Position numbers and translations under genes: made by a program
Shown: positions 6,616 to 51,297 of the stretch, one piece after another
Position numbering within the stretch: the first letter of the stretch is position 1
Layout of the letters: each line of letters starts with the position of its first letter
Notes under the pieces: model-generated
Databases searched by the model: none
Told to the model about the DNA's origin: nothing
What the model saw: the letters and a program-made list of their open reading frames with translations, nothing else
Source of the DNA: Kutzneria buriramensis
GTDB lineage: Bacteria > Actinomycetota > Actinomycetes > Mycobacteriales > Pseudonocardiaceae
Direction of reading: 5' to 3'
NCBI RefSeq assembly: GCF_003387475.1
Contig: NZ_QUNO01000030.1
Location: 1 to 64,000, forward strand
DNA length: 64,000 nt

Positions 6616-6664
6616 CTGCCTGAAACCTACATTCGGTGTGTCTGTGAGCGCGACTCGCGGGGGC
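6616..6664 (-). repeat. 3'-end repeat element, copy 1
   Basis: In the sense of adoK it starts directly after the stop codon with CCCCCGCGAGTCGCGCTCAC and ends near ACACCGAATGTAGG followed by TTTCAGGCAG. It is nearly identical to the copy at 47857-47908. See findings for the family. Confidence 0.75.
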
Positions 6665-7642
6665 TCAGGCGGGGAGGATGGCGGCGACCTCGGTGGCGGC
6701 CTCGGGGCCGAAGGCGTCGGAGAGGCGGCTCAGGGCCTTGACGCGGTCGAAGGCCCACTCCTGGGGGCCGTTGACCTCCAGGACGTGCACGGCGACCAGC
6801 GCGCCGAGCTGGGCGGCACGCTCCAGGCCCAGGCCGCAGGACACGGCGGCCAGGAAGCCGGCGCGGAAGCCGTCGCCGACGCCGGTGGGGTCGACCTTGG
6901 CCAGCTCGGGCACGGCCGGCACCTGGAGCGCGCCGACCTCGCGGCCGACGATCTCCACGCCCTTCTCGCCGAGGGTGGTGACGCGCATCTCCACCTTGTC
7001 CAGGATCTCGGCCTCGGTCCAGCCGGTCTTGCGGAGCACCAGCTCCCACTCGTAGTCGTTGCTGAACAGGTACTTCGCCCCGACGACGAAGCGGCGCACC
7101 TGGTCGCCGTCCATCCGGGCCAGCTGCTGCGACGGGTCGACGGCGAAGGCCAGGCCGCGCTGCCGGCACTCGTCGGCGTGCTGGATCATCGCGTCGGGGT
7201 CGGTGGGGCTGAGCAGCACCAGGTCCAGGCCGCCGACGCGGTCGGCGATGGCGCCGATCTCGACCATGCCGGTCTCGGCCATCGCGCCCGTGTAGAACGA
7301 GGCGATCTGGTTCATGTCGTCGTCGGTGGTGCACATGAACCGGGCGGTGTGCTTCAGGTCGGACACGTAGACGGACTGGCAGTCCACGCCGTGCCGCTCC
7401 AGCCAGGCGCGGTAGTCGTCGAAGTCCTTGCCGACGGCGCCGCCCAGGACCGGCCGCTGCCCCAGCACACCCATGCCGAACGCGATGTTCGCGCCGACGC
7501 CGCCCCGGCGCACCACCAGGTCGTCGACCAGGAAGCTCAGCGACACGCGGTCCAGCCGCTCGGCCACCAGCTGCTCGGTGAACTTGCCCGGGAAGTGCAT
7601 GAGGTGGTCGGCGGCGATACTGCCGATGACAGCGACGGGCAC
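6665..7642 (-). CDS. adoK: Adenosine kinase, PfkB family
   Basis: 325 residues. It is a ribokinase/PfkB-fold sugar kinase closely resembling mycobacterial AdoK: GSIAADHLMHFPG at the N-terminus, the GG substrate motif at RRGGVGANIAFG, and the C-terminal DPTGVGDGFRAGF containing the catalytic Asp and anion hole. It phosphorylates adenosine to AMP (purine salvage) in the cytosol. The start is GTG at 7642: GGGGAG lies 7 bases upstream and the family begins at the first strand (VAVIGS); a GTG 11 codons earlier is less likely. The position between asnB and the HesB gene matches mycobacterial order. Confidence 0.88.
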   Translation of the reverse strand: MPVAVIGSIAADHLMHFPGKFTEQLVAERLDRVSLSFLVDDLVVRRGGVGANIAFGMGVLGQRPVLGGAVGKDFDDYRAWLERHGVDCQSVYVSDLKHTARFMCTTDDDMNQIASFYTGAMAETGMVEIGAIADRVGGLDLVLLSPTDPDAMIQHADECRQRGLAFAVDPSQQLARMDGDQVRRFVVGAKYLFSNDYEWELVLRKTGWTEAEILDKVEMRVTTLGEKGVEIVGREVGALQVPAVPELAKVDPTGVGDGFRAGFLAAVSCGLGLERAAQLGALVAVHVLEVNGPQEWAFDRVKALSRLSDAFGPEAATEVAAILPA

Positions 7643-7760
7643 TGTGGTTCTCCCCGATCTCGACTGGTCGGCCACCCGGTCGGGTGGACTGTTCCGGGTT
7701 CGAAAGACTACCGATTGGTAACGGATACCGATGGGGTGTCCCTCGACCTACGGTCTTGTC

Positions 7761-7928
7761 GTGACCACCCCAGAACCCGTTTCACTGGATCAGCTCATCG
7801 ACGACTGCGCCGACATCCCGGGCGCGCTCCGGCAGCTGGTCCGCCCGCTGCCGTCCCCGCGCCAGGCCGCCCCGTGGCGGGTCGACGAGACGTGCGTCGC
7901 CCAGGTCAGCGGCCTCGACGACTACTGA
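7761..7928 (+). CDS. Small conserved-looking protein, 55 aa
   Basis: 55 residues, acidic, from GTG at 7761. The sequence ends APWRVDETCVAQVSGLDDY. I do not recognise the family. Support for a real gene: a divergent position from adoK with its own upstream space, normal codon use for the window, and a strong intrinsic terminator 9 bases after the stop. No clear Shine-Dalgarno, so the transcript may be leaderless. No membrane segment or known motif; one cysteine. Confidence 0.55.
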   Translation: MTTPEPVSLDQLIDDCADIPGALRQLVRPLPSPRQAAPWRVDETCVAQVSGLDDY

Positions 7929-7936
7929 CACGCGAG

Positions 7937-7965
7937 AAGGGCCGCCTCCGAGGGAGGCGGCCCTT
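7937..7965 (+). terminator. Intrinsic terminator
   Basis: AAGGGCCGCCTCC (7937-7949) pairs with GGAGGCGGCCCTT (7953-7965), with T/A runs on both sides. It can serve the small gene on the left and the HesB gene transcribed towards it. Confidence 0.8.
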
Positions 7966-8004
7966 TCAGCCCAAGGGGCTCGTTCAGACTCCAAGCTCGT
8001 TCGA

Positions 8005-8379
8005 TCAGTGGAACGAGTCGCCGCAGGCGCACGAGCCGCCCGCGTTCGGGTTGTCGATCGTGAAGCCCTGCTTCTCGATGGTGTCCACGAAGTCGATCGT
8101 GGCGCCCTGGAGGTACGGCGCGCTCATCCGGTCCACGGCCACCTTCAGGCCGTTGAAGTCGCGGAGCAGGTCGCCGTCGAGGCTGCGCTCGTCGAAGAAC
8201 AGCTGGTAGCGCAGACCCGCACAGCCACCGGGCTGGACGGCGATGCGCAGGTGCATGTCATCGCGCCCCTCCTGCTCGAGCAGCGCCTTGGCCTTGCTGG
8301 CAGCGGTGTCGGTGAGCTCGACGCCGTGCGTCTGCTCCTCGACCGGCGTGCCCTGCGAGGCGGTGTCCTGGACGGTCAT
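8005..8379 (-). CDS. erpA: Iron-sulfur carrier, HesB/IscA/ErpA family
   Basis: 124 residues. It has the A-type carrier fold with the three conserved cysteines: one in PGGCAGLRY and two in GGSCACGDSFH at the C-terminus. These bind a 2Fe-2S or 4Fe-4S cluster and pass it to apo-proteins. The start is ATG at 8379 with GAGGGAGA just upstream. LipA further along needs Fe-S clusters, so a carrier in this block makes sense, but the link is only positional. The symbol is by family; the exact paralogue (ErpA or another A-type carrier) is not certain. Confidence 0.88.
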   Translation of the reverse strand: MTVQDTASQGTPVEEQTHGVELTDTAASKAKALLEQEGRDDMHLRIAVQPGGCAGLRYQLFFDERSLDGDLLRDFNGLKVAVDRMSAPYLQGATIDFVDTIEKQGFTIDNPNAGGSCACGDSFH

Positions 8380-8469
8380 GGCTCTCCCTCGACGTCCTGC
8401 GTAGTCCTGTCCTTCACGGTCCAACGCAGAACGGGTCGACGTTCATTCCTCACCCCATGGTGACACAGG

Positions 8470-9576
8470 TCAGCGGGCATTTGCTCCGGACCACTGCGCC
8501 GCCACGTCCGCCGCAAGGGCGGCCAGCGTGCCGGCCGGGTCGGCCATCGCCGCCGGCACCGAGCCCGCGTGCTCGGCGACGGCGTAGGACTGCTCGACGC
8601 CGACCGCGCCGGCCTCGCGGCGGCCCACGCTGACCTGGCCGGCCAGCACCAGGCAGGGGATGCCCCGCTCGGCCGCGCCGGCGGCCACCGCGGTGATCAG
8701 CTTCCCGCGCAGCGACTGCCAGTCGAAGCTGCCCTCGCCGGTGATCGCCAGCCGGGCCCGGTCCAACGCCTCGTCCAGCCTCGTCAGCGTCCTGACCAGC
8801 GAGGATCCGGACGTGAACTCGGCGCCCAGCGCCAGCAGCCCGGCCCCCAGGCCGCCGGCGGCGCCCGCGCCGGGCCGGTCGCGCACATCACGTCCGGCGG
8901 CCGCGAGCACGTCCGCCCACCGGGTCAGGCCGGCCTCCAGCCGGTCCACCGCGGCCGGGTCGGCCCCCTTCTGCGGACCGAACGTGTTCGCCGCCCCGTG
9001 CCGTCCGAGCAGCGGGTTCTCCACGTCGGACGCCGCGACGAGGGCGATCCCGACCTCCGGCAGCTCGGCGTCGGCCGCCCGCGCCAGGTCGGTGCCGCCG
9101 GGCCCGATCGGGGCTCCTGTGTCATCGCTCACGTGCCCGCCGAGGGCCCTGATCAGACCCGCGCCGCCGTCGGTGGTGCCGGAGCCGCCGAGCCCGACGA
9201 CCGCCGTGCGCATGCCGGCGTCCCGGGCGGCGACGATCAGCTCGCCGACGCCGTACGTGGTGGACGTCTCCGGGTCGCGGCGCTGCGTGAGGTGCAGACC
9301 ACACGCCTGCGCCGATTCGATGTAGGCGGTGCCGTCGTGGGCGAGCCACTGCGCGTGCACCGGCTGCCCGAGCGGACCGGTCACCCGCGCCTCGTGCAGT
9401 TCGCCGCCGAGAGCGCCGTGCAGCACCTCGACGAAGCCGGGTCCGCCGTCGGCGAGCGGGCGCAACAGGAGTTCGTCGGACGGCGCGGTCCGGCGCCAGC
9501 CGGCGGCGATGGCCTCCGCGGCCTCGCGGGCGGTCAGCGTGCCGCCGAAGCAGTCCGGTGCGACGAGTACGCGCAT
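8470..9576 (-). CDS. Glycerate kinase
   Basis: 368 residues, the size of the GlxK/GarK-type glycerate kinase. It starts MRVLVAPDCFGGTLTA, close to the family's APDSFKGSLTA signature, and contains ADGGPGFVEV and GLGGSGTTDGGAGL. It phosphorylates D-glycerate (usually to the 2-phosphate in this family). The serine/lysine usual in APDSFKGS is replaced here (CFGG), so specificity should be treated with care. It lies upstream of the HesB gene on the same strand and diverges from the DUF3043 gene across 42 bases. Confidence 0.85.
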   Translation of the reverse strand: MRVLVAPDCFGGTLTAREAAEAIAAGWRRTAPSDELLLRPLADGGPGFVEVLHGALGGELHEARVTGPLGQPVHAQWLAHDGTAYIESAQACGLHLTQRRDPETSTTYGVGELIVAARDAGMRTAVVGLGGSGTTDGGAGLIRALGGHVSDDTGAPIGPGGTDLARAADAELPEVGIALVAASDVENPLLGRHGAANTFGPQKGADPAAVDRLEAGLTRWADVLAAAGRDVRDRPGAGAAGGLGAGLLALGAEFTSGSSLVRTLTRLDEALDRARLAITGEGSFDWQSLRGKLITAVAAGAAERGIPCLVLAGQVSVGRREAGAVGVEQSYAVAEHAGSVPAAMADPAGTLAALAADVAAQWSGANAR

Positions 9577-9618
9577 GGCGCTGAAACTACCTCTGGTGGC
9601 CTGGCTTACCCTGGTGAC

Positions 9619-10284
9619 GTGAGGTTCTTGCGCCGCAATTCAGCCGACGACGCCGCCGCTCAGGACGAGGCGGTGGACATCGCCACGGAATCCGACCTGG
9701 CGAAGGGGCAGACCGCGCGCAAGGGCCGTCCGACGCCGAAGCGGATCGAGGCCGAGGGCCGCCGCCGCGGCCCGGTGCCGCCGCCGCCCCGCACCCAGCG
9801 CGAGGCGATGAAGCGCAACCGCGACCTGCGGCCGAAGCTGACCCGCGAGGAGCGCGGCAAGGCGCAGAACGAGCGGCGCGAGCGCATGATGGCCGGCGAC
9901 GACGCGTACCTGATGCCCAAGGACCGTGGCCCGGTCAAGGCGTTCGTCCGGGACGTGATCGACTCGCGGCGCAACTTCATGGGCCTGTTCATGCCGATGG
10001 CGATCCTGGTGCTGGTGTCGTACTTCGCACAGGTGGCGGTGCCGGCGATGGGCCTGGTGCTCCAGGAGTACGTGATGCTGGCCTGCCTGGTGTTCCTGCT
10101 GGCGATGGTCGTCGAGGCGATCATGCTCGGCCGGCTGGCGACGCGGCTGGCCCGAACCAAGTTCCCCAAGGAGACCATCGGCACCGCCAGCATGGTCTGG
10201 TACACGTTCACCCGGGCCAGCCAGGTGCGCCGGCTGCGGGTGCCGCGGCCGCGGGTGCGGCCGGGCGAGACCGTCTCGGTCTGA
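9619..10284 (+). CDS. DUF3043 membrane protein
   Basis: 221 residues. A long, highly charged N-terminus (GRPTPKRIEAEGRRRGPVPP, then KLTREERGKAQNERRERMM) precedes DAYLMPKDRGPVKAFVRD and two TM helices at about 130-150 and 155-175. This layout is the actinobacterial DUF3043 family (mycobacterial Rv2206 type). The function is unknown; the cytoplasmic basic arm suggests contact with nucleic acid or ribosomes, but that is speculation. GTG at 9619 sits close to the likely promoter and has no Shine-Dalgarno, suggesting a leaderless message. Confidence 0.82.
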   Translation: MRFLRRNSADDAAAQDEAVDIATESDLAKGQTARKGRPTPKRIEAEGRRRGPVPPPPRTQREAMKRNRDLRPKLTREERGKAQNERRERMMAGDDAYLMPKDRGPVKAFVRDVIDSRRNFMGLFMPMAILVLVSYFAQVAVPAMGLVLQEYVMLACLVFLLAMVVEAIMLGRLATRLARTKFPKETIGTASMVWYTFTRASQVRRLRVPRPRVRPGETVSV

Positions 10285-10311
10285 GATCCCGCCCCACGAG
10301 ATCCGGGGCCA

Positions 10312-10332
10312 TTAATTAGCTGATCTAACTAA
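10312..10332. promoter_or_regulatory. Operator-like dyad before aldo/keto reductase
   Basis: TTAATTAG-CTGAT-CTAACTAA: an inverted repeat of the form TTAnTTAG-N5-CTAAnTAA, 20 bases before the ATG at 10353. It is AT-rich in a GC-rich region. It resembles a TetR- or MarR-type operator; no regulator gene is adjacent. Confidence 0.45.
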
Positions 10333-10352
10333 CGACGTCTAGGCTTCGGGAC

Positions 10353-11339
10353 ATGGAGTTTCGTCGCCTGGGCCGCAGCGGCCTGTCGGTAAGTGAGATC
10401 TCGTACGGCAACTGGATCACCCACGGCTCCCAGATCGAGCAGGATCAGGCCGTCAAGTGCGTGCACGCCGCGCTCGACGCCGGCATCACCACGTTCGACA
10501 CGGCCGACGTGTACGCCAACACCAAGGCCGAGTCGGTGCTCGGCGAGGCGCTCAAGGGCCAGCGCCGGGAGAGCCTGGAGATCCTCACCAAGGTCTTCTG
10601 GCCGACCGGTCCCGGCGGCCCCAACGACCGCGGCCTCGGCCGCAAGCACGTGCTGGAGTCGATCAACGGCTCGCTGAAGCGGCTGGGCACCGACTACGTC
10701 GACGTGTACCAGGCGCACCGGTTCGACCGGACCGTGCCGCTGGAGGAGACCTTCCTCGCCTTCGCCGACATCGTGCGGCAGGGCAAGGCGCTCTACATCG
10801 GCGTCTCCGAGTGGAACGCCGACCAGATCACCCGCGGCGCGGCCGTCGCCCGCGAGCTGAAGGTGCCGTTCATCTCCAACCAGCCGCAGTACAACATGCT
10901 GCACCGGGTCATCGAGCCGCAGGTCATCCCGACCAGCGAGCGGGAGGGCCTGTCGCAGATCGTGTTCTCGCCGATCGCGCAGGGCGTGCTCACCGGCAAG
11001 TACCTGCCGGGCCAGCCGGTGCCGGAGGGCTCGCGGGCCACCGACGCCAGCGGCAAGAACTTCATCTCCCGGCTGCTGCTCGACGAGGTGCTGGAGAAGG
11101 TCCAGCAGCTCAAGCCGATCGCCGCCGACGTGAACCTGTCGCTGGCCCAGCTGGCGGTGGCCTGGGTGCTGCAGAACCCGAACGTCGCCTCGGCGATCAT
11201 CGGCGCCAGCCGGCCGGAGCAGGTGGCGGAGAACGTCAAGGCCGCCGGCGTGAAGCTGGACGCGGAGATCCTGGAGCGGATCGACAAGGTCCTGGAGGGC
11301 ACGGTCCGCACCGACCCGATGCTGACGCAGTCTCCGTGA
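10353..11339 (+). CDS. Aldo/keto reductase
   Basis: 328 residues, an NADP-dependent (alpha/beta)8 barrel enzyme. The family tetrad is present: Asp and Tyr in FDTADVYANTKAE, Lys in ILTKVFW, His in VYQAHRFD. The sequence resembles the KCNAB/YghZ group (AKR6/AKR14-like; GVSEWNADQI, GASRPEQVAENVKA). It reduces aldehydes or ketones; the substrate is not predictable. It is a single gene, preceded by an operator-like dyad at 10312 and followed by the hairpin at 11343. It is not part of the mycobacterial order, so it is probably an insertion into this block. Confidence 0.85.
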   Translation: MEFRRLGRSGLSVSEISYGNWITHGSQIEQDQAVKCVHAALDAGITTFDTADVYANTKAESVLGEALKGQRRESLEILTKVFWPTGPGGPNDRGLGRKHVLESINGSLKRLGTDYVDVYQAHRFDRTVPLEETFLAFADIVRQGKALYIGVSEWNADQITRGAAVARELKVPFISNQPQYNMLHRVIEPQVIPTSEREGLSQIVFSPIAQGVLTGKYLPGQPVPEGSRATDASGKNFISRLLLDEVLEKVQQLKPIAADVNLSLAQLAVAWVLQNPNVASAIIGASRPEQVAENVKAAGVKLDAEILERIDKVLEGTVRTDPMLTQSP

Positions 11340-11342
11340 TTC

Positions 11343-11396
11343 GCAGGGAAGGGGGCTTTCCCTGCGCTCGATGCGGGGAAAGCCCCCCTTCCCTGC
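11343..11396. terminator. Long hairpin, GCAGGGAA family
   Basis: GCAGGGAAGGGGGCTTTCCC (11343-11362) pairs with the complementary stretch ending at 11396, with one extra C. It lies between the convergent aldo/keto reductase and the small gene at 11405, so it can end both transcripts. No T tract. Confidence 0.65.
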
Positions 11397-11404
11397 ATCG
11401 AGGG

Positions 11405-11599
11405 TCAGGGCTTGAGGCTCATAGGCCCGTAGACGACCTCGTCGCCGTCGAGGAGCGTGACCTGGGTGACGTCGATCTCCGCGAGGTCGGTCCAGGTGGC
11501 GCTGAGCCAGTCCTCGGCGGCGGCCTGGTCGTCGAACGCGACGTCCGGGCCGGTCACGTCGAGGCCGTCGTCGTCCTGGTAGTGCCATCGCAGCGCCAT
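11405..11599 (-). CDS. Small hypothetical protein, 64 aa
   Basis: 64 residues from ATG at 11599 (MALRWHYQDDDG). It is acidic and probably a single small beta/alpha domain: FDDQAAAEDWLSATW looks amphipathic, and the sequence ends VVYGPMSLKP. No signal peptide or TM segment. Similar short proteins are, from memory, found beside cobU in related actinobacteria, but I cannot name a function. It diverges from cobU with only 23 bases between the start codons, so the two promoters must overlap the opposite gene. Confidence 0.65.
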   Translation of the reverse strand: MALRWHYQDDDGLDVTGPDVAFDDQAAAEDWLSATWTDLAEIDVTQVTLLDGDEVVYGPMSLKP

Positions 11600-11622
11600 G
11601 CGCAGACGGTAACGTCCGGCCG

Positions 11623-12138
11623 GTGACGTCACGGACACTGGTGCTCGGCGGCGCCCGCTCGGGCAAGTCGGCGCACGCCGAGGGGCTCGCGGGGGACGTC
11701 GTCACCTACGTGGCGACGGCGCGGCGCGACCCGTCGGACGCCGAGTGGCAGGCGCGGATCGCCGCGCACGTGGCCCGCCGGCCGGCCGCGTGGTCGACGG
11801 TGGAGACCACGGATCTGCCCGAAATACTGGGGAAAGTCCCGGAAACGGTGCTCGTCGACGACCTCGCGACGTGGCTGACGGGCGTGCTGGACGACACCGG
11901 CGGCTGGGATGGCCCGGTGGACGGGGCCCGCGCCCGGTGTGACGAACTCGTCGAAGCGGTGGCGCGACGCCACTGGCCGCTGGTACTTGTGTCCGCCGAG
12001 GTCGGGCTGGGAGTGGTGCCCGCGACCCGCTCTGGCAGGCTGTTCCGCGACGAACTGGGCTCGCTGAACGCGAGGCTGGCGCAGGTGTGCGACGAGGTGC
12101 TGCTGCTCGTGGCCGGCCTGCCGCTCCGGCTGAAGTGA
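11623..12138 (+). CDS. cobU: Adenosylcobinamide kinase / guanylyltransferase
   Basis: 171 residues. The P-loop GGARSGKS at residues 9-16 is the CobU signature; YVATARRD and a later region ending near [13 protein letters not shown] are also typical. The enzyme phosphorylates adenosylcobinamide and then transfers GMP to form AdoCbi-GDP in nucleotide-loop assembly. It starts with GTG at 11623 and is first in a cobU-cobT-cobS operon; cobT follows after 13 bases. Confidence 0.92.
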
Positions 12139-12151
12139 AAGGACGCCGAAG

Positions 12152-13222
12152 GTGACGACCATCGAGTTCCCCGCCGTCGAACCGCCGGACCCGGCCGCGC
12201 AGCGGGAGGCGTCCGCCCGCCACGAGCGGCTGACCAAGCCCGCCGGCTCGCTGGGCCGGCTGGAGGAGCTCGGCGTGTGGATCGCCGCGTGCCAGGGCAA
12301 GTGCCCGCCGCGGCCGTTCACCCGGGCCCGGGTGGTGGTGTTCGCCGGCGACCACGGCATCGCCCGCCACGGCGTGTCCGCGTTCCCGCCCGAGGTCACG
12401 GGCCAGATGGTGGCCAACTTCATGACCGGCGGCGCCGCGATCAACGTCCTGTCCGGGGTGTCGGGGGCGACCGTGCGGGTTGTCGACATGGCCGTCGACG
12501 CCGACACCCCCGAGCAGGTCGGCAAGTTCAAGGTGCGGCGGTCGTCCGGCTCCATCGACCGCGAGGACGCCCTCACCGAGGACGAGGTGCGGCAGGCCGT
12601 CGCCGCCGGCATGGCCATCGCCGACGAGGAGGTCGACGGCGGGGCGGACCTGCTCATCGCCGGCGACATGGGCATCGGCAACACGACGCCGTCGGCGGTG
12701 ATCGTGGCCGCGCTGACCGGCGAGGAGCCGGTGGCGGTCGTGGGGCGCGGCACCGGCATCGACGACAGCGCGTGGATGCGCAAGACCGCCGCGATCCGGG
12801 ACGCGCTGCGCCGGGCCCGCAAGGTCACCGGCGATCCGCTGGCCCTGCTGCGCACGGTCGGCGGCGCGGATCTCGCCGCCATGGCCGGATTCCTGGCGCA
12901 GGCCGCCGTCCGCAAGACCCCGGTGCTGCTGGACGGCCTGGTCGTCGGGGCCGCGGCGATGGTCGCCGAGGACCTCGCGCCGGGCGCGCGGCACTGGTGG
13001 GTCGCCGGGCACCGGTCGGTCGAACCCGCGCACGGTTTCGTGTTGGGGCACCTGGGTTTGACGCCGATCATCGACCTGGGCATGCGGCTGGGCGAGGGGT
13101 CGGGGGCGGCCGCCGCGCTGCCGCTGCTGACCATGTCCGCGCGCATCCTCACCGAGATGGCCACCTTCGGCGACGCCGGGGTTTCCGAGCGGTCCGAGGA
13201 CACCGCGAGCACACCGTCGTAA
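12152..13222 (+). CDS. cobT: Nicotinate-nucleotide:dimethylbenzimidazole phosphoribosyltransferase
   Basis: 356 residues. [33 protein letters not shown] and GDMGIGNTT are hallmark CobT motifs; the general-base Glu lies in [11 protein letters not shown] near the C-terminus. It activates the lower-ligand base of cobamides as the alpha-ribazole phosphate. GTG start at 12152 with AAAGGA upstream. A short tail ([13 protein letters not shown]) follows the catalytic region. Confidence 0.93.
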
Positions 13223-13224
13223 CC

Positions 13225-13953: not shown

Positions 13954-14007
13954 CGCAGGGAAGGACGCCTTACCTGCGTTGAACGAGGGTAAGGCGTCCT
14001 TCCCCGC
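13954..14007. terminator. Long hairpin, GCAGGGAAGGACGCC family
   Basis: GCAGGGAAGGACGCCTTACC (13955-13974) pairs with GGGTAAGGCGTCCTTCCCCGC (13987-14007), loop containing TGCGTTGAAC. It starts at the cobS stop. Sequence and loop are almost the same as the hairpin at 27301-27355. Confidence 0.7.
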
Positions 14008-14020
14008 ATCAGGATCTGCC

Positions 14021-14057
14021 TACATTCGGTGTGTTTGTGAGCGCGACTCGCGGGGGG
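14021..14057 (-). repeat. 3'-end repeat element, copy 2
   Basis: Read on the minus strand it follows the TAA of the P450 gene immediately: CCCCCCGCGAGTCGCGCTCA, ending ACACCGAATGTA. It is the same family as 6616-6664. Confidence 0.75.
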
Positions 14058-17405: not shown

Positions 17406-17435
17406 CCTGCGCTCCCCCGCCGAATCGACCCTACG

Positions 17436-17681: not shown

Positions 17682-17691
17682 GCGCAATCGG

Positions 17692-29047: not shown

Positions 29048-29848
29048 TCAGACCTGCCCGAGATCTACATTCGGTGTGTCCGTCAGCGCGACTCGCGGAA
29101 GGAAAGCGGCGAGCAACTCCGCCGCCCTGGTCGGGTCCTCGGCCGGGAAGAGGTGGCCGGCGCCGGGTTCGATCACCAGCTCCGAGTCGGGGACGCACGC
29201 CGCCAAGGTTGTCACCGCGTCGACGGGGGCTATGCCGTCGCGGGTGCCGGTGACGACGAGGGTGGGCACGGTGATGGACGCCGCCAACTCGCCGAACTTG
29301 GTGTCGAAGTAGCTGAGGAAGGCCTCGACCATCGCCGGCACGCTGGCGTTGCGGTAGTTCTCGTAGTCCATGTCGAGGATCCACCGCCGCCGCGCCCTGT
29401 CCTTGGTGACGATGACGAAGGCGTCGGCGAGGTACACCGCCGGCTTGCTGCACAGCCAGAACCGGGCCGCCCGCGGCGGCAGCCACGAGCCGATCCGGTA
29501 GTACAGCTTGCCCAGCCACGCCGTGAGACCGGTGGCCTCCGAGACGGGGTTGAGCAGCACCAGGCCGTCCAGCGCGGACCCGTAGCGGGCGGCGTAGACC
29601 AGCGAGATCGACGCCCCCAGCGAGTGCCCGGCCAGCACGAACCGCTCCAGCCCCAGCGACAGCCGCAGCCGCTCGATCTCGGCGGCGTAGTTCTCCAACG
29701 TGTGCGGCACGGCCAGCGGCGGCGACGCGCCGTAGCCCGGCAGGTCCGGCACGACGACCTCGACTCCGTCGAGCGCGTCGGCCAGTTCCCGCAGGCCACG
29801 GCGGTCGCCGCCCAGGCCGTGCAGCAGCAGGACCGTCAGCTTGTCCAC
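29048..29848 (-). CDS. Alpha/beta hydrolase
   Basis: 266 residues. Oxyanion LLLHGLGGDRRG near the start, nucleophile elbow AGHSLGAS (about Ser89), acid Asp in GTRDGIAPVD and His in GAGHLFPAED. The substrate is unknown. GTG at 29848 lies inside the end of the upstream LLM gene (13-base overlap). The last 16 or so residues (PRVALTDTPNVDLGQV) are translated from a copy of the dispersed 3'-end repeat, so the original stop seems to have been lost or displaced. Confidence 0.82.
   Translation of the reverse strand: MDKLTVLLLHGLGGDRRGLRELADALDGVEVVVPDLPGYGASPPLAVPHTLENYAAEIERLRLSLGLERFVLAGHSLGASISLVYAARYGSALDGLVLLNPVSEATGLTAWLGKLYYRIGSWLPPRAARFWLCSKPAVYLADAFVIVTKDRARRRWILDMDYENYRNASVPAMVEAFLSYFDTKFGELAASITVPTLVVTGTRDGIAPVDAVTTLAACVPDSELVIEPGAGHLFPAEDPTRAAELLAAFLPRVALTDTPNVDLGQV
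29066..29098 (-). repeat. 3'-end repeat element, copy 3 (inside a CDS end)
   Basis: On the minus strand: CCGCGAGTCGCGCTGACGG then ACACACCGAATGTA. It lies in the last codons of the hydrolase gene rather than after its stop. Confidence 0.75.
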
Positions 29849-37190: not shown

Positions 37191-37226
37191 CCGAACCCCC
37201 TTGACCGATCGAGTGCGCAGAGGCTA

Positions 37227-43019: not shown

Positions 43020-43077
43020 GCGGTCAACACTGCGCCGCCGAGCTGTGGGCCAGCTGAGGACGGGCTGTGCCATCTCC

Positions 43078-43106
43078 TTGACCGTGACCGGGTGGCCACC
43101 TAGGGT
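43078..43106 (+). promoter_or_regulatory. Sigma-70-type promoter of GH9 gene
   Basis: TTGACC (43078-43083), 17-base spacer, TAGGGT (43101-43106), matching TTGACN-N17-TANNNT. Transcription would start about 22 bases before the ATG, just ahead of an AAAGGAGG ribosome site. Confidence 0.6.
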
Positions 43107-43134
43107 GACAAATCGTAAAGGAGGTTTACAAATA

Positions 43135-44967: not shown

Positions 44968-45004
44968 GGGGTCCATCGGATAGGACCGACGATCGGTTGA
45001 AGGG

Positions 45005-45032
45005 TAGGGCCGGGCAGCGATGTCCGGCCCTA
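45005..45032 (+). terminator. Hairpin after GH9 gene
   Basis: TAGGGCCGG (45005-45013) with CCGGCCCTA (45024-45032), 10-base loop, 38 bases after the stop. No T tract. The rest of 44968-45208 contains the leader of the LuxR gene and no other gene that I can see. Confidence 0.5.
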
Positions 45033-45208
45033 TGTCCTTGTCAGGGCCCTTTTCAGGGGAATTCCTAGTATTCGTTGACACTGTCCGACGGCGGTTGCTT
45101 GACTTGGCCCCAGGTGAGGCGGCAAGGAATCGCATTCTTCACATTTGTCACCGGCAGTCGCCCCGCGAATCAATCCCGCGCTGTTCGTCGATCCGACCGG
45201 GGGAGATC

Positions 45209-47785
45209 ATGAAGCGGCAGGTGCTGGCCCAGCGGACCCCCGACGACGGCCGGCGGCCGCTGCGGGGCCGCGACGCTCAGCTGGACCAGGTGCTGGACGC
45301 GTTGCGGGCGGCCGGCTCGGACGGTTCCCGCCGCACGCTGCTGCTGGCGGCGCCCGTGGGGGCGGGCAAGACGCGGCTGCTGCTGGAGGCCGCTTCGGTC
45401 GCCGAGTCCATCGACTTCTCTGTGGTAGACGGCATCGCGGACCTGCCCGTGGTTCGCCAGCCGCACGCCGTCGCTCCCGACGCGACCCGGTTGAGCTGGC
45501 TCACCGCGCAGTTCGAGCGGCAGGTGGAGACGCAGCTGCGGCACGGCCCCGTGCTGGTCGTCGTGGACGATCTGCACTGGGCGGACCCGCTGACCGTGAC
45601 GGCCTTGCGCAGTCTCATGACCCGGCTGGACGACAACCCGGTCGTGTGGATCTTCGCCATGCGGGCCGAGGACCTGGACTCCCCCAACGGCTTGCTGCTC
45701 GACGCGATGGCGACCGGGCCCCGCACGGAGTGGCTGCGGGAGCTCGAACCGCTGCGGGATGACGCCGTGACCGATGTGGTCACGGACCTGTTGGACGCGA
45801 CGCCGGACGCAGATGTCGCTTCGCTGTGCGAATGCATGGGCGGTAACCCGCGGGCAATCGTCGACCTGGTCCGCGGTCTACAGGCGGACGAGGCGCTGCG
45901 GATCGGCGGCGGCATCGTGCGGCTGGCCGACGGCCCGCTGCCGTCCAGCCTGGTGTCGACCGTGGCCATCGACACGGATTCCGGCCTGCCGCGACGCTTC
46001 CGGACAGCCGTTCGGGAGTTGCTCGACCGGCTCGACCCGTCGACAAGACAGGTGCTTCAAGTGGCGGCCGTGCTGGGGCGGTCGTTCAGTCCTCAGGACC
46101 TCGCCGCCATGCTGTCCACGCCGCCGGCGACGCTGCTGAAGCCGTTGCAGGAGGCTGCCGGATTCGTCGGCTGCCTTTCGGACGCCTTCGAGTTCCGGCG
46201 GGAGCCGGTGTGGCGGGCGGTGCTCGACACCGTGCCGCCGTTGATGCGTTCCCTGCTGCACAAGCAAGCTGCCGAACTGTCCTCCTCGGACGTTGCCGCC
46301 GTGCATTTGTTGCACTGCGGGCCGGCCAGCGACGAGCGGTCCATCTTCGCCATTCGCGCCGCCGCCGACCGGCTGCTCGGCCACTCCCCCGAGACCGCCG
46401 CCGCGCTGGCCGTCCGCGGTCTCGAGGTCGCCGATCAGGACCTGCCCTCGCGCGACGAACTCGCCCGCACGGCCGTCGCCGCGCTGACCCGCTCCGGATC
46501 GTTGGACCGGGCCGTGAGCCTGGCCCGGCCGGGGCAGGATCTGGCGGTTGCGTTGCTGCTCAAGGGAGAGGTGGCGCGGGCCGCGCGGATCGGCGCCGGG
46601 CAGGTGCGGCTCGCCGCGCTGGCGTACGGGAATCCCGCCGCGGCGGAGAAGGTCGCCGGCGGGTGGGACGGCGTGTCGCTGACCGTGCGGGCAATGGGGA
46701 TGTGGCGGCGAGGACGGGTCGAGGACGCCCTTGCCACAGCGCAGAAGGCGGGCACGCAGGAGTCCCCGTGGTACTTCGATCCACAGTGGACGCATGCCTG
46801 GATGCAGATCCGGTTGCGGCGGCTGGCCGAGGCGTCGGCGACGATTCGCGCCGTCGAGGACCGCGCCGACAGCGCCAAGGTGCTCGGCAGCGTGCCGCTC
46901 GCGCTGCGGTCGTGGGCGTCGTTCGCCCAGGGCAACATCGCCGAGGCGGAGTCCGAGGCGCTCGCCGGTGTGTCGGTCGCCGCCGACACGCAGATGCCTC
47001 TGTACGAACCGCATCTGCGGGCCGTGCTGGTGTTGACCGCGCTGCGGCGCGGCGACGTCGCCACCGCAGCCGACCGGTTGCAGTCGTTCGAGGGGCTGCC
47101 GTGGTCGTCGCTGCGGACCTGGGTCACCGCGCAGATCGCCGCCGCGCGTAGCGGCCCCGAGGCCGCCCTGGCCGTGCTGGCCGAGGTTCGCACCGATTCC
47201 GCCCGCCGGCGTGAGCTGCTATTGGAGGATCCCGCCGTCGCCGCGTGGTGTGTGCGCACCGCGATCGCCGCCGACGACGAGGCCTTCGCCCGCACGCTGC
47301 TTGCCTCCGCCGAGGAGCTCGGCATCGGCGCGCACGCCCGGGCCCTGTACTTCCGGGACGTGATGACGCTCGTCGCCGCCACCGAGCAGTACGAGGACCG
47401 GTGGGCCCGCGCGTCCGCCACCGAGGACCTCGGCGCGTTGCTCCGCGACTACGACCGTGACGAGGCCGTGTCCGCGTTGGACCGGGCCATGGAGTTCTAC
47501 GATTCCCTCGGCGCCGCTTGGGATTCCGCCCGGGTGCGCAGCCGCCTGCGCCGGCTCGGCGTGCGGCGCCGGCACTGGCACCAGGCGCCGCGGCCGGCGA
47601 CCGGCTGGGGTTCGCTCACCGGCACCGAGGAGAAGGTGGCGCGGCTGGTCGCCCACGGGCTGACCAACCGCCAGGTCGCCACCGAACTGTTCGTCTCCCC
47701 CCACACCGTCGGCTTCCACCTCCGCCAGATCTACCGCAAACTGGCCATCCAGTCCCGCGTAGACCTGGCCCGCATAGCCCCCTGA
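45209..47785 (+). CDS. Large LuxR-family regulator with AAA ATPase domain (LAL type)
   Basis: 858 residues. An N-terminal AAA region with Walker A PVGAGKTRLLLEA and Walker B VLVVVDDLHWAD (about residues 45-140), a long TPR-like helical middle, and a C-terminal LuxR HTH (LTGTEEKVARLVAHGLTNRQ, then VATELFVSPHTVGFHLRQIY). LAL regulators activate specialised-metabolism or carbohydrate genes after ATP/ligand sensing. The start is ATG at 45209 with GGGGGAG just upstream. Neighbouring targets may be the GH9 gene, but that is inferred. Confidence 0.88.
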   Translation: MKRQVLAQRTPDDGRRPLRGRDAQLDQVLDALRAAGSDGSRRTLLLAAPVGAGKTRLLLEAASVAESIDFSVVDGIADLPVVRQPHAVAPDATRLSWLTAQFERQVETQLRHGPVLVVVDDLHWADPLTVTALRSLMTRLDDNPVVWIFAMRAEDLDSPNGLLLDAMATGPRTEWLRELEPLRDDAVTDVVTDLLDATPDADVASLCECMGGNPRAIVDLVRGLQADEALRIGGGIVRLADGPLPSSLVSTVAIDTDSGLPRRFRTAVRELLDRLDPSTRQVLQVAAVLGRSFSPQDLAAMLSTPPATLLKPLQEAAGFVGCLSDAFEFRREPVWRAVLDTVPPLMRSLLHKQAAELSSSDVAAVHLLHCGPASDERSIFAIRAAADRLLGHSPETAAALAVRGLEVADQDLPSRDELARTAVAALTRSGSLDRAVSLARPGQDLAVALLLKGEVARAARIGAGQVRLAALAYGNPAAAEKVAGGWDGVSLTVRAMGMWRRGRVEDALATAQKAGTQESPWYFDPQWTHAWMQIRLRRLAEASATIRAVEDRADSAKVLGSVPLALRSWASFAQGNIAEAESEALAGVSVAADTQMPLYEPHLRAVLVLTALRRGDVATAADRLQSFEGLPWSSLRTWVTAQIAAARSGPEAALAVLAEVRTDSARRRELLLEDPAVAAWCVRTAIAADDEAFARTLLASAEELGIGAHARALYFRDVMTLVAATEQYEDRWARASATEDLGALLRDYDRDEAVSALDRAMEFYDSLGAAWDSARVRSRLRRLGVRRRHWHQAPRPATGWGSLTGTEEKVARLVAHGLTNRQVATELFVSPHTVGFHLRQIYRKLAIQSRVDLARIAP

Positions 47786-47788
47786 CCC

Positions 47789-47838
47789 ACCCCCGCGAGT
47801 CGCGCCCAGCACCAGACCGAATGTCGGTTTCGTGCAGA
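47789..47838 (+). repeat. 3'-end repeat element, copy 4
   Basis: It starts 3 bases after the LuxR stop: CCCCCGCGAGTCGCGCCCAG, then ACCGAATGTCGGTTTC. With copy 5 it forms an inverted pair filling the gap between the convergent LuxR and DsbA-like genes. Confidence 0.75.
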
Positions 47839-47856
47839 ACGGAGACCCGAGGCTCG

Positions 47857-47908
47857 TTTCTGCCTGAAACCGACATTCGGTGTGTCTGTGAGCGTGACTC
47901 GCGGGGGT
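47857..47908 (-). repeat. 3'-end repeat element, copy 5
   Basis: On the minus strand it directly follows the DsbA-like stop with AACCCCCGCGAGTCACGCTC and runs to ACACCGAATGTCGG and TTTCAGGCAG. Almost identical to copy 1. Confidence 0.75.
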
Positions 47909-48622
47909 TCAGGCGGCGCCGGTGAGGTGGGTGAGCCAGTCGGACTTGCTGATGTCGACCTGGTTGTCGCCGGACAGCACCGTCGGCGTGCCCTTGAAGT
48001 TGACGGAGTTCTGGGCGGCGTCGGTCTGCGACTTGATCTCGCTGTCGAAGGTGCCGGCCTTGACCTCGTCGGCGAACTGCCCGCCGGTGATGCCAGCCTT
48101 GCGGCCGATGTCCACGAGCTGGTCGTTGGTGTAGCCGGCCTGTCCCTCGGTCGGCTGCTGGGCGTAGAGGGCCTCGTGGAACTCGGCGAACCGGCCGGCC
48201 TTGGCCGCCGCGAGGGCGGCGTTGGCGGCCCGCAGCGAGTAGCCGGCGGGCGTGGTCTCGTTGTCCAGGAGGTCCAGCAGGTGGTAGTTGACGCGCAGCG
48301 AGCCGTCGGCGATCGCCTTGGTGACGGCTTTTCCGTACGGGATCTCCAGGTTGTGCTCGCAGTACGGGCAGAGGAAGTCCTCGTACACGTCCAGCGTGAC
48401 CTTGGCGCTCGCGCTGCCGGCGACCACGGTGCCGTCGGACCGCACGGTGGTGGCGTAGGTGCCGCCGGCCTGCGGTTTGTCGGCCAGGGCGCGGGTGTAG
48501 ACCACGCCCCCGATCACGGCGGCGGCGATGACCGCCACCGCCACCACGAAGATCAGGTTCCGCCGGCCGTTGGCGGTGCCGCGCGCCGCCGCCACGGCGT
48601 TCCTGGTTCTGGTTGCGCCCAC
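47909..48622 (-). CDS. Membrane-anchored DsbA-family thioredoxin-like protein
   Basis: 237 residues. An N-terminal TM anchor (about 20-42, LIFVVAVAVIAAAVIGGVVY) leads to an outer DsbA-like domain with the CPYC active site (YEDFLCPYCEHN) and a cis-Pro region KGTPTVL. It is probably a thiol-disulfide oxidoreductase outside the membrane. GTG at 48622 with GGGAGG 9 bases upstream. It follows the Clp-N gene on the same strand after 52 bases. Confidence 0.87.
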   Translation of the reverse strand: MGATRTRNAVAAARGTANGRRNLIFVVAVAVIAAAVIGGVVYTRALADKPQAGGTYATTVRSDGTVVAGSASAKVTLDVYEDFLCPYCEHNLEIPYGKAVTKAIADGSLRVNYHLLDLLDNETTPAGYSLRAANAALAAAKAGRFAEFHEALYAQQPTEGQAGYTNDQLVDIGRKAGITGGQFADEVKAGTFDSEIKSQTDAAQNSVNFKGTPTVLSGDNQVDISKSDWLTHLTGAA

Positions 48623-48674
48623 CGGAACACACCTCCCTGTCCGCCCACCACGACGGACGGGAGCCCGGATCGGT

Positions 48675-49211
48675 TCATTCGCCGAGGCGCGCCAGCACCG
48701 CGGGCTTGATCGAATCGACGTCGACGTCGAGATTGCGCAGCACGGTGAGCGCGACGCCCTGCCCCTCGGCGAGCATGCCGAGCAGGATGTGCTCGGTGCC
48801 GATGGTCGCGCTGCCCAGCTCGACCGAGGACCGCAGGGTGTATTCCAGCACCTTCTTGGCCCGGGGCGAGAACGGCGGCCGCGGGAAGTGGAACTTGCCC
48901 GGTCCGAACGTTTCGTCCGCCCTGCGCCGGATCTCCTCGACGTCGACGCCGATGGACGCCAGCGCCTCGGTCGCCGCCTGCGGACTCGCCGGCCGCACGC
49001 CGCTGTCGGCCAGCACTCTGGCGATCTCGTCGCGCAGGGACTGGGTGGTGACTCCCTTGTCGTGCAGCACTTCCCCGGCGACGGTGTCGCGCACGCCGGC
49101 CAGCCCGACCAGCACGTGCTCGGTGCCGATGAAGTCGTGCCCCTGCCGCATCGACTCGTCCTGGGCCAGCACGAGCACCCGCTTGGCGCGGTCGGTGAAC
49201 TTCTCGAACAC
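48675..49211 (-). CDS. Clp N-terminal domain protein
   Basis: 178 residues with two Clp-N repeats: MFEKFTDRAKRVLVLAQDES, DFIGTEHVLVGLAG, then PRAKKVLEYTLRSS and ATIGTEHILLGMLAEG. It lacks the AAA domains of ClpC, so it is a stand-alone adaptor-like Clp-N protein. It may bind Clp substrates or compete with ClpC. GTG at 49211, one base after the stop of the HTH gene, so the two are coupled and share the doubly operated promoter. Confidence 0.87.
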   Translation of the reverse strand: MFEKFTDRAKRVLVLAQDESMRQGHDFIGTEHVLVGLAGVRDTVAGEVLHDKGVTTQSLRDEIARVLADSGVRPASPQAATEALASIGVDVEEIRRRADETFGPGKFHFPRPPFSPRAKKVLEYTLRSSVELGSATIGTEHILLGMLAEGQGVALTVLRNLDVDVDSIKPAVLARLGE

Positions 49212-49212
49212 G

Positions 49213-49455
49213 TCAGGCCTCCTTGTTCGCTGCCTTGCGGCGGTTGGCGTGCTTCTCGTGCACGGACTGACGGCTCACGGCCAGCGCGGTGGCGATGTCC
49301 TGCCACGACCAGCCCTGCTCACGGGCGTTGTCCACGTGCAGCCGCTCGAGCTCCTCGAGGAGCCGGCGCAGCGCCACGACGGCCCGCAGCCCGACGGCGG
49401 GGTCCTTGTTGGTGATCTGCCCGGCCAGCTCGGCCGGCGTGTCCCGATCGGTCAT
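49213..49455 (-). CDS. Small HTH regulator next to Clp-N gene
   Basis: 80 residues. HTH: EQGWSWQDIATALAVSRQSV then HEKHANRR; N-terminal part helical. It is probably the repressor of its own operon with the Clp-N gene. ATG at 49455 has no Shine-Dalgarno; the -10 box ends 7 bases before it, so the transcript is probably leaderless. Two 18-bp dyads cover the promoter (49459-49502). Confidence 0.8.
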   Translation of the reverse strand: MTDRDTPAELAGQITNKDPAVGLRAVVALRRLLEELERLHVDNAREQGWSWQDIATALAVSRQSVHEKHANRRKAANKEA

Positions 49456-49458
49456 GGT

Positions 49459-49502
49459 TGTCAGGCTAACCTGACACGGGTCGTTGTCAAGACACCCTGA
49501 CA
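49459..49502 (-). promoter_or_regulatory. Promoter with two TGTCA-type operators (HTH/Clp-N)
   Basis: On the minus strand: -35 TTGACA (49485-49490), 16-base spacer, -10 TAGCCT (49463-49468). Two 18-bp dyads overlap them: TGTCAGG-N4-CCTGACA (49459-49476) over the -10, and TGTCA-N8-TGACA (49485-49502) over the -35. The predicted start of transcription falls at or near the ATG. Confidence 0.65.
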
Positions 49503-50365
49503 CCGCGGCCGATGACGGCGGTTTCGAAGCGGCGGGCGACGACGTCGGAGGGATTGGCGACCAGGCAGACGACATCCCGACCGAGCGGCGGATCCATCGG
49601 CACGGCCACGCCGGCGAAGCGGCCGTGGATCGCCGAGCGCGGCACGATGGCGACGCCGACCCCGGCGGCGGCCAGCTGCGCGGCGGTGACGGCCTGCCGG
49701 GTGCGCATCGCGACCGTCAGGACCACACCGTGGTGCGCCGCAACGGAATCCAGCCAGGCGGCGAGGCCGTTCTCGGGGTCGTAGTGCACGATCGGCTCGT
49801 TCTCGAGCTCCACGAACGTGATCGCCGGCCGGTCGGCGAGGGGATGCCCCTGGGGCAGCACGACCACCACCTCCTCGTAGCCGATCAGTCCACTGTGGCC
49901 TGTCCAGCGGGTCGGCCGCGGTCCGACGGCGAGGTCGGCCTGGCCGGATTCCAGCTGCCGCACAAGGGCGTCCGCCCTCGTCTCCTCGACCAGGGCGATG
50001 CGGATGTCCGGGTGACGACGACGCCACTGGCGCAGCACCGGGGCCAGCAGGCTCGCGGTCATGCTTTCGGCGCAGGCGATGCGGAGTTGACCGGCCCCGC
50101 CCCTGGCGACGGCACGACCGGTTTCGACGACCCGCTCCCCGGCGGCGAGCGCCACCCGGGCGTCCGCCTCGATCGCGCGACCGGCGACGGTGGCGCGGAC
50201 TCCCCTCGGCAACCGCTCGACCACCGCGACGCCGAGTTCCTTCTCCAGGGCGGCGAGCTGGTGCGACAGGGCCGGCTGGGACATGTGCAGCGCGGTGGCG
50301 GCGTCGGTGATCGAGCCGGCGTCGAGGACGGCGACGAGGCATTCCAGGGCGCGGAGCGTAGGCAT
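49487..50365 (-). CDS. LysR-family transcriptional regulator
   Basis: 292 residues. Winged HTH PTLRALECLVAVLDAGSITD and AATALHMSQPALSHQLAALE; typical effector domain ending near the C-terminus. ATG at 50365. It diverges from the SDR gene across 79 bases, a typical LysR/target arrangement. Its stop lies inside the second operator of the HTH/Clp-N promoter. Confidence 0.9.
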   Translation of the reverse strand: MPTLRALECLVAVLDAGSITDAATALHMSQPALSHQLAALEKELGVAVVERLPRGVRATVAGRAIEADARVALAAGERVVETGRAVARGGAGQLRIACAESMTASLLAPVLRQWRRRHPDIRIALVEETRADALVRQLESGQADLAVGPRPTRWTGHSGLIGYEEVVVVLPQGHPLADRPAITFVELENEPIVHYDPENGLAAWLDSVAAHHGVVLTVAMRTRQAVTAAQLAAAGVGVAIVPRSAIHGRFAGVAVPMDPPLGRDVVCLVANPSDVVARRFETAVIGRGVRVS

Positions 50366-50444
50366 TCGGAAAGTCTATGGCGATCGTCGAAAACCTTCAT
50401 GCTTTGACGGGATTTGTGCCGCTACCTGCTGCGTTGTCAGGGGC

Positions 50445-51107
50445 ATGGACCTCACTGACAAGAAGGTAGTGATCATCGGCGGCGGCTCGGGCATCGGCGC
50501 GCGGCTCGCCGCCGACCTGACGGCGGCCGGCGCGAAGGTGATCGTCGCCGGGCGCACGACGTCGCCGGCCGTGGACCTGACCGACGAGGACTCGATCCGG
50601 CGGCTGGCCGAGGAGGTGGGAGAGGCGGACCACCTGGTGTCGCTGGCCTCCGCGCCGGCCAACGGGCCGGTGGCGGAGCTGGACCGGGACGCCGTGCACA
50701 CCGCGTTCGACGCGAAGGTGATCGGCCCCATCCTGCTGGCCAAGCACTTCACCGGCCGGATCCGGCCCGGCGGCTCGATCCTGCTGTTCTCCGGCTTCAT
50801 CGGCTGGCGACCGAGCCCGGCGCGGGTGGTGATGGCCACCACCAACGTCGCGGTGGCCGCCCTGGCCGAGGCGCTGGCGGTCGAACTCGCGCCGGTGCGG
50901 GTGAACGCCGTGTCGCCGGGGATCATCGACTCCGGCGTGTGGGACGGCCCCGGCAAACAGGCCCTGTTCGAAGGGGTGGCCGCGAAGAACCCCGCCCGCC
51001 GCGTCGGTCAGCCCTCCGACGTCTCCGCCGCCGCCCTCCTCGCCCTCACCAACCCCTTCCTCACCGGCGCCACCCTCCACATCGACGGCGGTGCCCGCCT
51101 CGCCTGA
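50445..51107 (+). CDS. SDR-family protein lacking the catalytic Tyr/Lys
   Basis: 220 residues. The Rossmann motif GGGSGIGARLAADL and the C-terminal GATLHIDGGARLA are clear SDR features. The YxxxK motif is missing: the aligned segment after FSGFIGWRPSPA reads VVMATTNVAV. So it may be a non-reductive binding protein or use another mechanism; some SDR subfamilies have this change. ATG at 50445. Probably controlled by the divergent LysR protein. Confidence 0.82.
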   Translation: MDLTDKKVVIIGGGSGIGARLAADLTAAGAKVIVAGRTTSPAVDLTDEDSIRRLAEEVGEADHLVSLASAPANGPVAELDRDAVHTAFDAKVIGPILLAKHFTGRIRPGGSILLFSGFIGWRPSPARVVMATTNVAVAALAEALAVELAPVRVNAVSPGIIDSGVWDGPGKQALFEGVAAKNPARRVGQPSDVSAAALLALTNPFLTGATLHIDGGARLA

Positions 51108-51163
51108 CAACCCCGGCGAGTCGCGCTCACAGGCACCCCGAAATGCGGTTTCAGGCAGAAACG
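51108..51163 (+). repeat. 3'-end repeat element, copy 6
   Basis: It directly follows the SDR stop: CAACCCCGGCGAGTCGCGCT, then GCACCCCGAAATGCGG and TTTCAGGCAG. Confidence 0.7.
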
Positions 51164-51200
51164 AGCCGCGGGTCTCAGATCTGTGCGAAACCCGCATTTC

Positions 51201-51247
51201 CACGAAACCGCATTTCGGTGTGCCGCTGGGCGAGACTCGCCGGGGCG
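51201..51247 (-). repeat. 3'-end repeat element, copy 7
   Basis: On the minus strand CGCCCCGGCGAGTCTCGCCC, then GCACACCGAAATGCGG and TTTCGTG. It lies between copies 6 and 8 and is the only copy not next to a stop codon. Confidence 0.65.
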
Positions 51248-51260
51248 TTGTGTCTGAGAC

Positions 51261-51297
51261 TTACATTCGGTGTGCCCCAGAGCGCGACTCGCGGGGG
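51261..51297 (-). repeat. 3'-end repeat element, copy 8
   Basis: On the minus strand it directly follows the GH95 stop: CCCCCGCGAGTCGCGCTCTG, then CACACCGAATGTAA. Confidence 0.75.

Follow-up and report, generated by a model that had tools for sequence, protein, structure and literature searches.

Several classes of short bacterial repeat offer a comparison for the element described here. Bacterial miniature inverted-repeat transposable elements (MITEs) are short elements with inverted repeats, 100-200 bp in length, that have multiplied within a species. Mycobacterial interspersed repetitive units (MIRU) are found at DTGA stop sites, although our literature search gave no paper on such sites. 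Plasmid replication iterons repeat directly, in helical phase, with a unit of about 22 bp. PMC3733652 and PMC12306157 describe repetitive extragenic palindromes (REP) and bacterial interspersed mosaic elements (BIME), tagged by GTAG and CGTC, as extragenic repeats that are dispersed and form head-to-head dimers; their arms are imperfect, and some copies stand within 15 nt of a stop codon. PMC6060812 reports that E. coli inverted repeats are enriched just downstream of stops, where they are mostly parts of intrinsic terminators and do not form one family. The present study concerns a dispersed gene-end element of Kutzneria buriramensis, first noticed in the window, by which we mean the whole analysed stretch of 64 kb (G000:C30:1-64000) from a genome of 12.0 Mb. 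An original prediction, made from the letters of the window, had described it as a REP-like or transcript-end repeat placed strictly behind genes.

Our analysis suggests that the window element represents the form, or dialect, taken in Kutzneria by a dispersed, mobile, protein-recognised family of iteron arrays at gene ends, a reading that we consider about evenly balanced. The arrays, their spacing, their position and their gain and loss at unmoved stops are observed directly. The Kutzneria elements share with REP and BIME, as those texts describe them, the dispersed and extragenic location, the head-to-head arrangement with imperfect arms and the nearness to stops. In contrast, the unit here resembles a 22-bp iteron and not the 20-40 bp hairpin of a REP, there is no invariant GTAG or CGTC tag, no Y1 transposase was found in the genome, and abutment to the stop is within a base. 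The elements are also like MITEs in being short, inverted-repeat and amplified within species, but no target duplication or parent insertion sequence was found in the junctions and stretches examined, and relatives with direct arrays lack terminal inverted repeats. MIRU units are longer, lie in operons and are not known to have the 22-bp CGAGTC unit. Unlike plasmid iterons, the units here are scattered over chromosomes at gene ends. They also differ from a CRISPR array: CGAGTC recurs every 22 bp, and the intervening 16 nt are alike within a species and not unique spacers, as judged from the repeats with cas genes left unsearched. The post-stop inverted repeats of E. coli, as PMC6060812 presents them, are alike in position, whereas the elements here form one sequence family. 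Compared with an intrinsic terminator, the hairpin is limited to paired elements, and a T run is not seen at their ends.

Within the window, CCCGCGAGTCGCGCTCAC with up to three mismatches gave seven matches against 0.65 expected, and none of 100 shuffles reached seven. All eight copies named in the original prediction were recovered by a profile search. Across the genome, a core pattern allowing one mismatch occurred at 151 places against three for the reversed pattern, and a slightly different core pattern at 253 places against one. The arms were sampled from 60 stretches (L031-L090) and the window (1,259,896 bases in total), where genes were called by a custom codon-usage script and not by a standard gene finder. 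A profile search of this sample found 132 arms at E < 0.005, and the reversed sequence gave a single match (E 0.35). Seventy of the 132 arms sit in inward-facing inverted pairs of 102-163 bp, 40 of them in 124-bp pairs; the 35 paired elements catalogued have the terminal inverted repeats by which MITEs are defined. The pairing rule used left 62 arms partnerless, and 11 of the 132 lie within called genes. Another arm stands within 300 bp of 21 of the 54 partnerless intergenic arms, which are therefore parts of composites, and the remaining 33 have none. The visible element classes are the 124-bp class, a 102-bp class (centre e.g. GCACATGTGC) and longer composites. Copies are spread over the genome and the genus, and the notion of a dispersed, non-paralogous element was upheld. 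The core itself varies: GCGAGTCGCGC predominates in K. buriramensis and GCGAGTCCCGC in the genomes G126, G057 and G019, and GCGAGTCACGC is frequent in G109 and G142. The self-complementary core noted in the original prediction is thus not what is conserved, because the other genomes read mainly GCGAGTCCCGC, GCGAGTCACGC or GCGAGTCGGGC. Widely spaced arms (0.6-1.1 kb), seen in L262 and L263 of G057 and in L060 of K. buriramensis, flank small genes, for example one for a DUF559 protein in L060; the genes so enclosed are of mixed kinds.

The position relative to stop codons was compared with uniform placement inside the same gap (5000 draws). In tandem gaps of the K. buriramensis sample, 13 of 25 elements lie 0-1 nt from the upstream stop, where 0.64 were expected and no draw exceeded five. 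An end lies 0-1 nt from a stop in 25 of 37 elements of convergent gaps (13.5 expected), and in none of six elements of divergent gaps. In contiguous stretches of four relatives, the tandem-gap excess was weaker (4 of 13 against 1.27 expected, p = 0.0016), and none of three divergent-gap elements abutted a stop. In these relatives, an element is present in 22 of 211 gaps between convergent genes, in 14 of 644 tandem gaps and in 3 of 207 divergent ones; the corresponding figures for K. buriramensis C5:1-280000 are 5 of 43, 7 of 156 and 2 of 43. Among 95 sense intergenic arms behind genes, 19 begin 0 nt and 23 begin 1 nt past the stop (42 of 95). Of the 43 convergent gaps that hold an element, 6 are spanned by it to within 1 nt of each stop and 10 to within 5 nt. 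These tabulated distances confirm the strict gene-end position well beyond chance, and neither scatter without a 3′-end bias nor absence elsewhere was seen, as convergent gaps are favoured and copies occur genus-wide. The claim that the element always has the sense of its gene was correct within the window but does not extend to a general rule: 45 of the 54 partnerless intergenic arms are sense and nine are not. Inverted pairs have the gene-sense orientation because of their symmetry.

The stops that stand 0-1 nt ahead of an element (41 genes) are TAA in 12 cases, TGA in 29 and TAG in none. Against the background of 1072 genes (TAA 72, TGA 808, TAG 192), the abutted set differs in both TAA (p = 5.6e-6) and TAG (p = 5e-4). 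As abutted stops are TGA or TAA and never TAG, stop and element would therefore share bases, and we read the terminal A or AA of the element as probably doubling as the final letters of the stop codon. Element edges away from stops are mostly CAACCCCC or CCACCCCC. A stop-like triplet as insertion target was tried and rejected, since by estimate its occurrence at these edges shows no excess.

In the genera sampled outside Kutzneria, the exact Kutzneria core occurs about as often as its control. Genus g5, which belongs to the host's family, is an exception: several of its genomes exceed the control with 9 to 17 core places, and there the core lies in direct arrays. The array unit consists of CGAGTC and 16 nt, spaced at 22 bp; the 16 nt vary from one species to another and, among the arrays listed, resemble each other within each. 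The two-unit pattern at 22 bp was found in 27 of 62 g5 genomes, and the reversed control gave 0 in all 62. Of 297 genomes in the family, 35 contain three units of CGAGTC at 22 bp, at up to 207 places per genome; these genomes are distributed over 9 of 46 genera. Class-wide, the three-unit pattern matches in 9 of 394 genomes. Furthermore, when loci were chosen with the core as the only criterion, a spacing of exactly 22 bp accounted for 53 of the 64 intervals shorter than 80 bp. Many arrays outside Kutzneria face each other, as Kutzneria arms do. Only 4 of 96 are intragenic; the tandem gaps hold 32 arrays oriented with the gene and 16 oriented against it. Thirteen of the 32 sense tandem arrays begin no more than 11 nt past the stop (3.55 expected; reached in 0 of 5000 draws), and 4 of the 16 antisense ones end at most 11 nt from a stop (1.83 expected; 264 of 5000). 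The frequent junction of stop and array is TGACCCCGCGAGTC outside Kutzneria and TGAACCCCCGCGAGTC within it. A search of open-licence papers found no description of 22-bp CGAGTC arrays. The three-unit pattern occurs in 17 stretches among 2.9 million viral contigs. A phage or plasmid origin was considered and dismissed, the element at 47786-47908 having no match. In another actinobacterial family, f41 (G838 and G886), TAG is, for example, followed directly by CGAGTCGGCGTGAATG units in L326. In genus g5 (L270, L299, L300), an array likewise lies 3′ of a kinase that clusters with adoK, a gene that precedes one of the window copies.

The gain and loss of elements could be followed at 23 comparable orthologous junctions of G109, G126, G142 and G057, each with an element in at least one species. 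In the junctions inspected, the stop is unmoved with or without the element. Behind uvrB, the element is present in K. buriramensis only, the four others have a TAG stop, and the protein end is kept exactly. The same exactness holds for gcvP despite element turnover, and the protein end at own_199 is kept within one residue. At polA, a half-element is common to K. buriramensis, G109 and G142; in G126 a different sequence that forms a small hairpin stands there, and in G057 the stops overlap as CTAG. The adoK element is present in Kutzneria sp. CA-103260 and absent in Kutzneria sp. 744 and K. viridogrisea; among named relatives, the adoK protein is closest to that of Kutzneria sp. 744 (93%), followed by Kutzneria sp. 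CA-103260 (92%). Elements that run into gene ends elsewhere encode tails such as TPASPA or GESRSAAHRM. Junctions free of the element often hold unrelated palindromes, as behind gcvP in four of six other genus members.

Such patchy presence, together with species dialects and presence or absence at orthologous sites, is also what selfish REP/BIME- or MITE-like repeats would produce. These would have no host role; an enzyme would copy them into gene ends, where insertions do no harm, and the position would be a by-product. The inverted-repeat ends agree with this explanation. Harmless insertion, however, predicts a spread through the gap and not the 0-1 nt placement of half of the tandem-gap elements. 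Moreover, there was no Y1 transposase, no clean target duplication and no insertion sequence with these ends in the stretches examined. No parent insertion sequence was recognised in 8 of 17 clusters of neighbour proteins (2.9 Mb) or between widely spaced arms, a search that did not scan whole genomes. Comparison of filled and empty junctions showed no clean target-site duplication, many empty sites being themselves remodelled. We regard selfish repeats as possible but somewhat unlikely. The CTAG stops of G057 at polA had prompted the idea of a TA-duplicating (IS630-like) insertion into overlapping CTAG stops. This idea was abandoned as a general rule, because the element-free adoK and own_230 sites have TGA without TA and edges away from stops seldom have TA.

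Some further features of these junctions were observed. At least three other types of palindromic gene-end repeat occur in K. buriramensis, G109, G126, G142 and G057 (GCAGGGAAGGACGCCTTACC/GGTAAGGCGTCCTTCCCTGC; AAGGGGCCCTTCCTGACGTTCAACGTCAGGAAGGGGCCCTT; GGAACGGACCATTCCTC/GAGGAATGGTCCGTTCC), and they take up junctions at which other species carry the element. Short sequences at the end of G142.B gene 34 and at the L260 junction (ACCCCGGCGAGGGGTT; CACCTCCGCGGG) resemble remnants of deleted palindromes between flanks. The gene at C5:223769-224935 of K. buriramensis ends in the tail GESRSAAHRM, which matches the element at the DNA level, and its orthologues in the four relatives have similar tails (SESRLAAHR, SETRLATHR, etc.) without element DNA. 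This tail may stem either from an old insertion or from conversion at a sequence that matched by chance.

The RNA folds of three paired elements are far more stable than those of shuffled sequences (z = -12.7 for 47786-47908, -17.5 and -16.5). This would suit ordinary bidirectional transcription terminators, that is, strong RNA hairpins behind stops that share their sequence through recent amplification. The concentration of pairs in convergent gaps and the other hairpins or palindromes held by the same junctions in some relatives also favour terminators. Yet the fold of the one half-element tried, at 6616, does not surpass those of shuffled sequences (z = +0.94). Of the six direct arrays, L347 alone folds better than its shuffles (z = -4.0), and the other five are at the level of theirs (z = -1.5 to 0.1). 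The partnerless arms, nearly half of the sample, and the 33 intergenic ones without any arm within 300 bp also speak against terminators. No U or T tract was found at the ends of the paired elements in the listed element sequences, the hairpin is confined to paired elements, and a separate conventional hairpin with a T run lies beyond the adoK copy. Furthermore, the arms do not behave as a co-evolving RNA helix, a candidate that was rejected on 20 elements of 124 bp because pairing within an element was no better than with swapped arms. Specifically, outer arm pairing was 0.942 within against 0.949 between elements, and inner arm pairing 0.789 against 0.763, a value equalled by 183 of 2000 swaps. 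Pairing was worse within than between elements for the 7-mer (0.579 against 0.661) and for the centre (0.743 against 0.803). Terminators are thus an improbable explanation. That arms of one element match no better than swapped ones, and in parts worse, recalls the REP heterodimers of PMC3733652 and adds to the case for selfish repeats. Control at the level of translation, as for E. coli REPs within 15 nt of the stop, where adjacent structure would stall the terminating ribosome, agrees with the closeness to stops. It would require structure at the stop, whereas the folded solo arm and most direct arrays show none beyond shuffles; hence, we consider it very improbable.

The REP-like part of the original prediction stood as far as the extragenic location at 3′ ends and in convergent gaps is concerned. 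The hairpin idea was only partly upheld because of the missing Y1 transposase, the unfolded half-element and the non-covarying arms. A search for the Y1 transposase domain (PF01797) gave no match in the K. buriramensis genome, and the same search was positive in 5 of 14 control genomes; a REP associated with a transposase of the RAYT type was rejected on this ground. The GTAG/CGTC tag is not invariant, as many arms read GTAGG and others GTCGG, GCAGG or ATGCGG. Rfam gave no match for the window or for five loci.

The eight copies of the window group as five elements, namely three solo arms, one inverted pair and one three-arm composite (Table 1). The inverted pair ends 4 nt from one stop and 1 nt from the other. 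In the composite, the outer ends of the arms are at 51108 (+), 51248 (-) and 51300 (-); its ends lie 3 and 0 nt from the stops, and the middle arm at 51248 touches no stop. The copy said to occupy the last codons of a gene was located in an alpha/beta-hydrolase gene, and a G109 gene (in L236) that ends in ...FLRRVTPTVTPNVDLG does so over a similar arm.

Table 1. Copies of the gene-end element in the window, and the hairpin beyond the adoK copy
Feature	Position	Strand	Context
Solo half-element, a single arm of about two 22-bp units	6616..6664	-	1 nt past the stop of adoK (PfkB-type kinase, 6665-7642)
Hairpin GGCCCCGTCCA/TGGACGGGGCC + TTTT, resembling a conventional intrinsic terminator	6582..6611	-	Directly beyond the adoK half-element; read from sequence
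Solo half-element	14009..14057	-	1 nt past the stop of a P450 gene (14058-15185)
Half-element within the final codons of an alpha/beta-hydrolase gene (29048-29848)	~29053..29101	-	Gene end ...FLPRVALTDTPNVDLGQV
Inverted pair (124-bp class)	47786..47908	.	Fills the gap that separates a LuxR-type gene (45209-47785) from a convergent thioredoxin/DsbA-like gene (47909-48595)
Three-arm composite	51108..51297	.	Fills the gap that separates a short-chain dehydrogenase/reductase gene (50445-51107) from a convergent glycoside hydrolase family 95 gene (51298-53511)

The kinship of the Kutzneria arms and the 22-bp arrays of other genera is suggestive, not conclusive. Kutzneria arms have a 22-bp period as well, though a weaker one. 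A profile of 119 K. buriramensis arms self-correlates best at a shift of 22 (5.63; the next is 2.59 at 24, among shifts of 5-45). The units of the arm appear as GCGAGTCGCGCTCTCAGACACA and then CCGAATGTAGGTTTCAGGCAGA, with 13 of 22 letters alike, the first unit exact and the second degenerate. The common core, the similar spacer past the stop and the inward-facing arrangement point in the same direction. The alternative, compatible with the other rivals, is that the Kutzneria palindrome and the arrays are unrelated and alike by chance or convergence. In its favour, the only letters shared exactly are GCGAGTC and the run of C that follows the stop. On the profile of the other genera, the second Kutzneria unit has a modest score (z = 1.87 at offset 22, next 1.15, behind offset 0), and the three-unit pattern has 0 matches in all seven Kutzneria genomes; for these two reasons, the link may be convergence. 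We consider an unrelated origin unlikely.

Besides these last two results, several others weigh against a mobile, protein-recognised array family. No reader protein, transposase or clean target duplication was found, and the eight largest of 17 clusters of neighbour proteins look like common families. The reversed control of the three-unit pattern in the family is mostly 0, yet it reaches 22 in G088, 8 in G296, 5 in G158 and G291, 4 in G001 and 1-2 in several others. Class-wide, controls reach 5, and because of this only G838 (65) and G886 (12), of family f41, stand clear. The sense bias in tandem gaps elsewhere is modest (30 against 15, p = 0.036), and abutment in convergent gaps of the relatives' contiguous stretches is weak (14 of 21 against 11.1 expected, p = 0.042). 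Furthermore, the K. buriramensis stretches were chosen mostly around known copies. A stop-like triplet is present in only 8 of 72 non-abutting edges, so that the base-exact abutment is without a proven cause; it is explained by none of the readings, the favoured one included.

In the favoured reading of mobile, protein-recognised iteron arrays, a unit of 22 bp, about two turns of DNA, carries CGAGTC at a fixed place, and arrays often begin a few bases past the stop in the sense of the gene. A Kutzneria arm would comprise two or three degenerate units, and arms would often face each other, therefore giving the near-palindromes of 102-124 bp in convergent gaps. A putative sequence-specific protein would read CGAGTC along one face of the DNA. 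A putative enzyme would copy arrays to new sites within each lineage, which would explain the species dialects and the patchy presence. At gene ends, the arrays may replace or accompany terminators, either acting as the transcript end or being tolerated in its place; we propose this role because other palindromes take the same slot in relatives. In its full form, the proposal is of an undescribed chromosomal iteron system of actinobacteria, in which a protein reads CGAGTC every two helical turns, dialects differ by lineage and arrays are planted base-exactly at stops. We offer this larger claim tentatively, as a possibility on the doubtful side.

The usual explanation of gene-end repeats is an RNA hairpin. 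In the present arrays, what is common to several genera is a six-base core at fixed spacing, mostly unstructured. If the proposed system is real, gene ends would be marked by a phased protein array and not by an RNA hairpin, and the placing enzyme would recognise translation-stop sites or the surrounding DNA. To our knowledge, MIRU are the only case of such stop-site targeting. Two questions thus become accessible to experiment with harmless soil bacteria: by what means actinobacteria of high GC content terminate convergent transcripts, and whether stop codons can serve as the target of a mobile repeat.

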